DNA from: Bacteroidaceae bacterium
GTDB taxonomy: Bacteria > Bacteroidota > Bacteroidia > Bacteroidales > Bacteroidaceae
NCBI GenBank assembly: GCA_017469685.1
Contig: JAFUFW010000023.1
Coordinates: forward strand, 1 to 38,612
DNA length: 38,612 nt
Reading direction: 5' to 3'
Shown here: positions 35,536 through 36,570 of the stretch, one piece after another
Position numbering within the stretch: the stretch's first letter is position 1
Layout: every line of letters starts with the position of its first letter
Notes under the pieces: generated by a model
Databases searched by the model: none
Seen by the model: only the letters and a program-made list of their open reading frames with translations
What the model was told of the DNA's origin: nothing
Position numbers and translations under genes: made by a program

Positions 35536-35617
35536 GCCCAGATGGCGGAATCGGTAGACGCGCTGGTCTCAAACACCAGTGGGGAAACCCGTGCCGGTTC
35601 GACCCCGGCTCTGGGTA
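35536..35617 (+). tRNA. tRNA-Leu (anticodon CAA)
   Basis: 82-nt class II tRNA: acceptor GCCCAGA/TCTGGGT (first pair G-T), D arm GGCGGAATCGGTAGACGCGC, anticodon arm CTGGT-CTCAAAC-ACCAG giving anticodon CAA, a long variable arm (TGGGGAAACCCGT) and T arm GCCGG-TTCGACC-CCGGC, with discriminator A. It reads UUG codons. CCA is not encoded. Confidence 0.95.
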
Positions 35618-35633
35618 CTTGCCAACAACGACG

Positions 35634-35767: not shown

Positions 35768-35891
35768 GGATTGATGATTTTGCTTTCAGCACTGATTTCT
35801 TCACCCAAAAGCTCGAGAACTCTCAACTTTGCTCTTTTCCCGAAGCTTTTGATGAGCAATTTACAAATCTAAAAAGTTTTTTTTCATATTT

Positions 35892-36360
35892 TTCCCTCAA
35901 TCCCTCAAACTTTCAGATACTCAGACCGTTATAACTGAGGGAAAACTGAGGGGTAGCTGAGAGAAAGCTGAGGAATTGAGGGAAAGTTGAGAGAGTTGAG
36001 GGAAAACTGAAGGAAAACAGGGGGGAAAATGAGGGACTGAGGGATTGAGGATCAGAGGGATTGAGGATCAGAGGGAAAGAATGATAATATGAGTGGAATG
36101 CCTGATTCGGCCTTATCTTAGTGCGTGAAGAGTCAAGGCTTTCGGGGAATTCCATTGGTGGAACTCGCAAATTCCACCGATGGAACTCCCCGAAAGATAT
36201 AGGTGTTTTCTCCTTCCATCGACTCTCTCTCGACTCTCTCTCAGCTTTCTTTCAGTTTTCTTTAAGTTTTCTTTAAGTTCTTCCTCTGTTTTCTCTCAAC
36301 CCCTCAGCTTTCCCTCAGCCTTAACAAGTTGACTGCCAAAAAGTTTGAGAGGTTGAGACT
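35892..36360. repeat. Giant imperfect inverted repeat made of opposed TGAG arrays
   Basis: Left array 35936-36080: degenerate direct repeats beginning TGAG with periods of 11 or 8 (TGAGGGAAAAC, TGAGGGGTAGC, TGAGAGAAAGC, TGAGGGAC). Centre 36139-36196: a palindrome with 25-base arms matching at 23 positions and an 8-base loop (CTTTCGGGGAA...TTCCCCGAAAG-like). Right array 36218-36320: the complementary units (GCTTTCTTTCA, GTTTTCTTTAA, GCTTTCCCTCA). Flanking TCCCTCAAACTTT (left) and AAAGTTTGAGAGG (right) extend the symmetry. Left strand is purine-rich, right strand pyrimidine-rich. Confidence 0.85.
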
Positions 36361-36570
36361 TATTTGCATGAAAAAAATTTGCGGATAAATACCTACGCAC
36401 ACGATGCTATTTATTTGAGCCTGTAGAGCAATCAATGAGTTCAACGTGATAGATATTTCTCATCTTTTCGACCTCCTTTTTTTCGGGCTTTTTCTGGCTT
36501 TCACCTCAAAAAAAGGCTTGAATTGGATTAACTTTCATAAGTAATCATCGGATTAAGTTATTTATGGTTC

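Follow-up and report, generated by a model that had tools for sequence, protein, structure and literature searches.

REP/BIME sequences with RAYT transposases are palindromic dispersed repeats thought to depend on a trans-acting protein. A second kind of dispersed repeat, the MITEs, is represented by BrickBuilt of Porphyromonas gingivalis, which the relevant sections of its description present as short, bounded by inverted repeats, multi-copy, and intergenic (PMC4596501). Where the published accounts treat replication of phage-satellite islands, SaPI origins are placed just downstream of the helicase gene, at iterons that Rep binds (PMC7581432), and PICI origins are described as two sets of iterons flanking an AT-rich region (PMC6092414). 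BT4734-like is a named primase family, and VirE/VapE domains are predicted helicases that replicate mobile elements (PMC5862659); in the available portion of that account of archaeo-eukaryotic primases of mobile elements, terminal repeats are not mentioned, and the words "inverted repeat" and "transposon" are absent from its main text. Our searches found no open-access paper on DUF6078 and none linking Prevotella and inverted repeats to VirE or virulence-associated E. Likewise, no description of a VapE-bearing element family of the kind reported below was found in the accessible portions of the open-access literature on VapE/DUF3874, BT4734, and Prevotella MITEs, a scope that left subscription journals mostly outside.

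A giant hairpin in the window, by which we mean the entire 38,612-nucleotide stretch of Bacteroidaceae DNA analyzed here, invites comparison with all of these systems. We conclude that it is probably a nonautonomous, MITE-like copy of a Bacteroidales mobile family whose ends each serve VapE as an iteron origin. The ends of the repeat fit positions 35886–36366 under a model (R1) built from sequence only, using the ten ends present in this genome. No gene was recognized inside that interval, as a prior sequence-only reading had proposed, and one 85-aa open reading frame on the minus strand crosses the array. Both the left terminal repeat (35886–35967, plus strand; 72.8 bits, E = 4e-21 over 59 sources) and the right (36287–36366, minus strand; 74.2 bits, E = 1e-21 over 59 sources) belong to the training set of the model.

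Reading inward on the plus strand, an A/T-rich tip at 35873–35894 (a T-run, 4–5 nt, and an A/T-run, with similar tips before most other ends) is followed by an outer pair of words, CCTCAATCCCTCA, 8 bp apart at 35895–35907; both features were read directly in the sequence. Next come a spacer measured at 27 nt (35908–35934) and an inner array of TGAG units, mostly 11 and 8 bp apart and expanded in the window copy (35935–36068). On the minus strand, the right end comprises an outer word pair (TGAGAGGTTGAG on the plus strand, 36346–36357), a 27-nt spacer (36319–36345), and a largely decayed inner array (36217–36318). Between the arrays lies the central palindrome (36139–36196, no strand assigned), whose arms at 36139–36163 and 36172–36196 pair at 23 of 25 positions around an 8-base loop, exactly as the sequence-only reading had it; the outer arms it described can also be read in the sequence. 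Its left array with periods of 11 and 8 stands out clearly, with 11 TGAG in 35926–36070 against a mean of 0.53 and a maximum of 3 in 145-bp bins over positions 1–35,500 of the window. Successive spacings in this array are 11, 11, 11, 8, 11, 9, 33, 8, 8, and 16. For the opposed array on the right, the proposed polarity is correct, but the array is much more decayed than its counterpart. Only four exact CTCA occur in 36220–36345, and by exact words alone the array is unexceptional because bins elsewhere in the window reach 5. The tRNA-Leu named as a neighbor is present as tRNA-Leu(CAA) at 35536–35618 (plus strand), outside the element, with its end 268 bp upstream.

BLAST searches of the same genome located the hairpin ends and the palindrome at other loci. 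The ten strong ends form four pairs and two single ends (L032 and L033): copy A is the window, and copies B (L029), C (L030), and D (L031) measure 408, 288, and 2,094 bp, respectively. In copy D, the same ends enclose a DUF6078 gene (PF19555, 9e-29) and a gene for a 392-aa VapE-like helicase (PF05272, 1.5e-29) that has a DUF3874 tail and lacks a primase domain. From its own genome, model R1 recovered the ten training ends and nothing else convincing. Of 139 genomes searched in the genus, 11 had ends at E ≤ 1e-3, with 32 ends in the genome designated G059. In a family-wide sample, the model identified ends in only 2 of 301 genomes; the source genome is counted in both cases. From 126 matches in total, 100 were kept by hand, the remainder being mostly weak or opposite-strand overlaps. 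In all, 40 paired elements of 195–2,116 bp were available, 25 of them in G059 and 32 shorter than 600 bp; VapE-bearing copies occur in G000, G059, G108, G125, and G132. Like a MITE, the repeat is short, noncoding, bounded by terminal inverted repeats (TIRs), and multi-copy (40 paired copies).

The palindrome at the center of the hairpin belongs to another short repeat, which also occurs alone. Its TTCCAYYGRTGGAA units stand by themselves at two places in the source genome (L034 and L035, on C69 and C46) and in tandem in genomes G092 and G019. This different repeat is nested in copies A–D: the two genes of copy D flank it, and in copies A, B, and C it is present and the genes are absent. The hairpin shows its perfect-looking tip because these three copies keep the palindrome without the genes. 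A palindromic repeat like GAGTTCCACYRGTGGAACTC, single or in tandem, was observed at L034:2540–2620, L035:545–565, L010:1485–1567, and L011:1498–1566. By eye, the G092 repeat is perhaps within a coding region, and tandem gttaacag-like units occupy an intergenic region of G094 (L013:1795–1900).

A scan of named bacterial genomes yielded 342 VapE relatives. Only the loci of the best 80 were taken for analysis, and these therefore lean toward near relatives of the query. They derive from metagenome-assembled genomes (MAGs), many of them from rumen or other gut samples according to their titles, and from isolates such as Prevotella sp. MA2016, P5-92, and ne3005. An inverted pair at E ≤ 1e-3 was found in 55 of these best 80 loci and in none of the other 25, some of which have too short a flank; P5-92 (L219) is among those without a pair. 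When the count was confined to the 65 loci with enough flank, 49 were paired at E < 1e-3 and 34 at E < 1e-10, leaving 16 without a pair. Moving the right-hand region outward reduced these numbers to 2 of 57 and 0 of 57. A same-strand control scored in 13 of 65 loci, probably because the ends themselves hold inverted words. The TIR-bounded VapE elements span ~1.6–3.3 kb, and their borders are the iteron ends.

Inverted repeats also accompany DUF6078–VapE loci that lack TGAG words (L150–L153, L163, and L165, the last of these weak at E = 0.004), and several of the six share a common layout built on different words. Beyond the rumen, a Parabacteroides distasonis locus with DUF6078 carries an inverted pair (E = 1.5e-4). 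So do an unannotated fecal contig (1.4e-14) and a Bacteroides finegoldii locus (4e-12) whose stretch, as shown, lacks DUF6078; two further such records (L258 and L259) gave one weak pair and none. DUF6078 was present in 45 of the 55 elements with an inverted pair and had no match in the other 10, and it was also found without a VapE match in several of the 7–11 kb stretches examined. The Pfam families retrieved from selected element proteins were DUF6078, VapE-like, DUF3874, DUF5906, and BT4734-like_N, with no transposase or recombinase recognized among the proteins scanned and no HUH nuclease domain among the matches. Judging by these domain assignments, full elements encode a VapE-type AAA+ replication helicase with a C-terminal DUF3874, often with a fused BT4734-type primase domain and usually preceded by DUF6078. 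DUF6078 is zinc-finger-like by its cysteines and possibly a helix-turn-helix (HTH) protein. Nothing in the PDB matched its predicted fold (pLDDT 89) at E ≤ 0.001; many lambda-repressor-type HTH domains are among the 36 weak matches up to E 10, which is suggestive only, and the best sequence match in the PDB had an E-value of 0.49.

Across these loci, an end consists of an A/T tip, two words 8–9 bp apart, a spacer of set length, and inverted words 11/12 and 7–9 bp apart. The word itself differs by subfamily (TGAGGG, GGTGGCAG, GTGTAGG, GTGGTAGAT, and others). A script with an author-set score returned a word for 52 of 55 elements, and L223, L233, L235, L236, and L239 were then dropped by eye; the words it found include TGAGGGAA, GGTGAGGG, TGGCAGTT, GTGTAGGT, GGTGACAG, GTGGTAGAT, TTGCAGATT, TGAGGAAAT, GTGACGGA, and GTGTATGCA. 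The 43 well-scored elements (word score of at least 9, also the basis of the spacing counts for these words) reduce to 33 word strings, many of which are shifted or one-letter variants of one another. Among ten MAGs with several loci, listed by hand from the set of VapE relatives, four each contain two elements whose words can be read clearly and differ. The word therefore belongs to the element and not to the genome.

In G059, the spacer is exactly 38 nt in 52 of 52 ends though its letters have diverged. TGAG-type ends outside G059 (loci below L110 plus the window) have 27 nt in 31 of 37 cases, and the difference of 11 is about one helical turn. These counts took 89 of the 100 kept ends. The eleven further TGAG ends, at L110–L119, were counted separately and gave 27 nt twice, 26 nt six times, 42 nt once, and two unmeasurable spacers; two of the three ends with 42 nt or an unmeasurable spacer are fold-back palindromes. 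Inner words in G059 are 10–11 bp apart in 152 of 153 steps. For elements with other words, the outer pair is spaced 8 or 9 bp in 58 of 60 cases, and the 114 inner steps include 55 of 11–12, 30 of 7–9, and 22 of 18–20, the longest looking as if a middle word had decayed. Both ends have an equal spacer in 26 of 41 of these elements and an unequal one in 15. The periods of 8 and 11 in the window are these two steps of the family layout, which is the layout of protein sites on duplex DNA.

In two minimal copies (L118:2035–2120 and L117:181–273), one terminal repeat is fused to an opposed copy of itself, producing a near-perfect palindrome. By eye, the spacer letters match in both arms, as if a single end had folded back.

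We read the ends as iteron origins of VapE because of the relation of this protein to 7pds, the position of one end behind the VapE stop, the GC content of spacers and tips, a winged-helix-like C-terminus, and the correlation between word and VapE. Searching the PDB with a profile of 54 VapE proteins gave one solved relative, 7pds (3e-10, "similar to D. nodosus vapE"), which we take to be the Rep of SaPI5. In 48 elements, the median distance from the VapE stop to the start of the right end, as aligned, is 8.5 bp (range −44 to 80), and two word sets around a spacer lie directly behind the helicase gene, as in PICI and SaPI origins. The tips have a GC content of 0.27–0.30 (the 25 nt outside the words average 0.30 over 98 ends), and the spacer, at 0.42 against 0.51 for the whole loci rather than an intergenic baseline, is moderately AT-rich. 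The DUF3874 region, modeled as helix, helix, and two strands, is winged-helix-like by our reading. For Mantel tests, words with a score of at least 8 plus two set by hand (L175 and L203) made a set of 49, of which 38 had both proteins. Word similarity correlated with similarity of VapE (rho 0.30, p 0.001, n = 38), DUF3874 (0.21, p 0.001), the BT4734 domain (0.14), and DUF6078 (0.10, p 0.02); the correlation with VapE is weak and could also arise through linked inheritance. DUF6078 is less well supported than VapE as the reader of the word (partial correlations of −0.14 versus 0.31; absent from 10 of 55 elements).

We infer from these features that each end would act as a two-sided iteron array composed of an outer word pair, a set-length spacer, and inverted inner words. 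VapE would bind the words, open the DNA at each end, and initiate copying of the element there, much as SaPI Rep works from a single origin. For short copies such as the one in the window, the VapE encoded by copy D of that genome may supply this function in trans. On this account, arm pairing is no more than a consequence of the ends being inverted copies of each other. Among the several functions that the sequence-only reading had left open, those that fit are a mobile-element end and a replication site.

Near-full-length alignments between loci bear on mobility. In 15 of 21, only the element itself aligns, and nothing beyond it matches at E ≤ 1e-30; the closest such case (L206–L209, RUG13469 versus Prevotella sp. 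MA2016) is 88% identical over 2,764 bp. Because homology stops at its borders in these 15 alignments, the element moves as a unit. In some of the remaining pairs the flanks match as well, as expected of orthologous sites (L208–L210, L236–L239, and L242–L245). No target-site duplication was detected in 40 + 48 pairs, the best z being 3.0 among 385 length-offset tests per set, and flank searches returned no clean or exact empty site, hence neither excision nor insertion was seen. Five relatives were examined for the tRNA-Leu site: three (L251, L252, and L253, in G017, G018, and G011) have no hairpin in the 0.7–1.2 kb beyond the tRNA, and in the other two no tRNA was found in the stretch.

If the family behaved as MITEs ordinarily do, the tips would be acted on by a DDE or HUH transposase that escaped notice, and VapE would be only cargo or a passenger replicon. 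The copies are indeed bounded by TIRs, mostly short, and located between ORFs (as judged by a simple stop-to-stop rule), and IS-derived MITEs are known in Porphyromonas from the sections of PMC4596501 that concern them. We nevertheless regard this explanation as unlikely. No transposase was recognized in the full elements examined, from which selected proteins were scanned with Pfam; their content is VapE and usually DUF6078. There is no target duplication, the words and their helical spacing reach far inward, and the repeat starts directly behind the VapE stop. BrickBuilt, as far as its published description was available (PMC4596501), shares with this family the short, inverted-repeat-bounded, multi-copy, and intergenic form; it differs in that the parent here has a helicase and no recognized transposase, no target duplication is seen, and the ends are iteron arrays in place of short IS-type tips. 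The resemblance to REP/BIME–RAYT systems similarly extends to dispersed palindromic repeats, but no RAYT was recognized here, and the ends are much larger and have set spacing.

A remnant of a PICI-like phage-satellite island that lost its integrase is quite improbable. The relation of VapE to 7pds and the resemblance of the iteron layout to PICI origins are what such a remnant would display, and the elements share with SaPI/PICI Rep–ori modules a related VapE helicase, often with a primase domain, and two sets of short iterons around a spacer directly downstream of the helicase gene. However, the VapE elements of ~1.6–3.3 kb are bordered at the iteron ends themselves, and each element ends in an origin-like block, the two blocks being inverted relative to each other, in place of a single origin. 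No int, terS, or repressor was recognized among the ORFs examined, nor any integrase with att sites or packaging or interference gene, with one or two recognized genes inside each element. Also unlike SaPIs and PICIs, many different words are found within one bacterial group.

Selection for the hairpin itself, as a structured RNA or bidirectional terminator, is very improbable. The RNA fold of 35890–36365 is strong, as the sequence-only reading anticipated, at −200.5 kcal/mol on the plus strand (z = −8.5) and −182.6 kcal/mol on the minus strand (z = −8.1), with 0 of 100 shuffles as good in either case, and an A-run and a T-run flank many stems. Against this, the arms show no excess matching outside the words. 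In the 25 elements of G059, arms matched at 0.531 within an element and 0.525 between elements (p = 0.34), and in 15 other elements at 0.496 and 0.504 (p = 0.51). Resemblance within an element thus does not exceed that between elements, and pairing looks like a by-product; what is kept across ends is word sequence and helical spacing. This result gives no support to the proposal that the hairpin functions as one long cruciform or as a structured RNA, and conserved arm symmetry, put forward as its test, was not borne out when that test was run in this simple form. For 35 of the 40 copies, ORFs could be called to the left and to the right; their arrangement was convergent in 10, divergent in 6, and same-strand in 19, hence without strong gene-end bias. 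The common ends also flank gene-bearing elements of 2–3 kb. In Rfam, only the tRNA reached its curated gathering score; another 15 matches, with E-values up to 1, fell short of theirs. On the arm-matching test, the Rfam result, and gene orientation, we rejected an RNA hairpin, terminator, or riboswitch. Chance simple-sequence drift is barely credible: low-complexity purine tracts drift easily and the right array holds only 4 exact words, but the same ends recur in 11 genomes, loci with other words have a similar layout, and the outward-shift control contradicts it (49 of 65 versus 2 of 57).

The reading that we favor, a mobile family whose inverted ends are VapE iteron origins, accommodates a bolder possibility. 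These may be transposons that move without any recombinase, in which a primase-helicase would replicate from two inverted terminal origins and host repair would join the copy; we offer this tentatively and lean somewhat against it. If it is true, many incompatible versions would coexist, sometimes two per genome, and DNA would spread in a genome through a replication initiator in place of a transposase. The VapE, BT4734, and DUF6078 genes of gut and rumen Bacteroidales would gain a role, and the purine-rich giant hairpins in Bacteroidales intergenic regions would be dead ends of such elements. Since the protein–word pair is often recoded and the layout largely kept, the family would constitute a natural library of initiator–iteron specificities. 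With many word–helicase pairs in one recurring layout, how an initiator reads its origin would become directly testable.

Several observations concern individual sites. Elements L190, L191, L193, L180, and L227, together with the end of L231, adjoin alternating CG runs (CGCGCGCG), perhaps reflecting a target preference. Two ends, L032:3701–3781 in G000 and L087:12–99 in G059, occupy the same site, with outer flanks 84% identical over 1,365 bp, and are of different word subfamilies (GCTGAGGG and GGTGAGGG). At L098:2007–2956, two left-type ends in the same orientation lie 0.87 kb apart around what appears by eye to be a toxin-antitoxin pair; each follows a shared ~50-bp sequence, which is likewise found ahead of ends in L099, L100, and L106. 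In G059, one copy (L069:2059–2150) is separated by ~210 bp from an 83-bp match, at 97.6% identity, to the tRNA-Leu of the window, much as the window copy lies ~270 bp from that tRNA; the G059 match to the upstream gene of the window is on another contig. Lastly, copies A (window:36960–37895) and B (L029:3440–4372) both adjoin a gene for an AlbA/HATPase_c_4-type regulator with a similar C-terminal HTH, assigned by Pfam for the window gene and by eye for that of L029.
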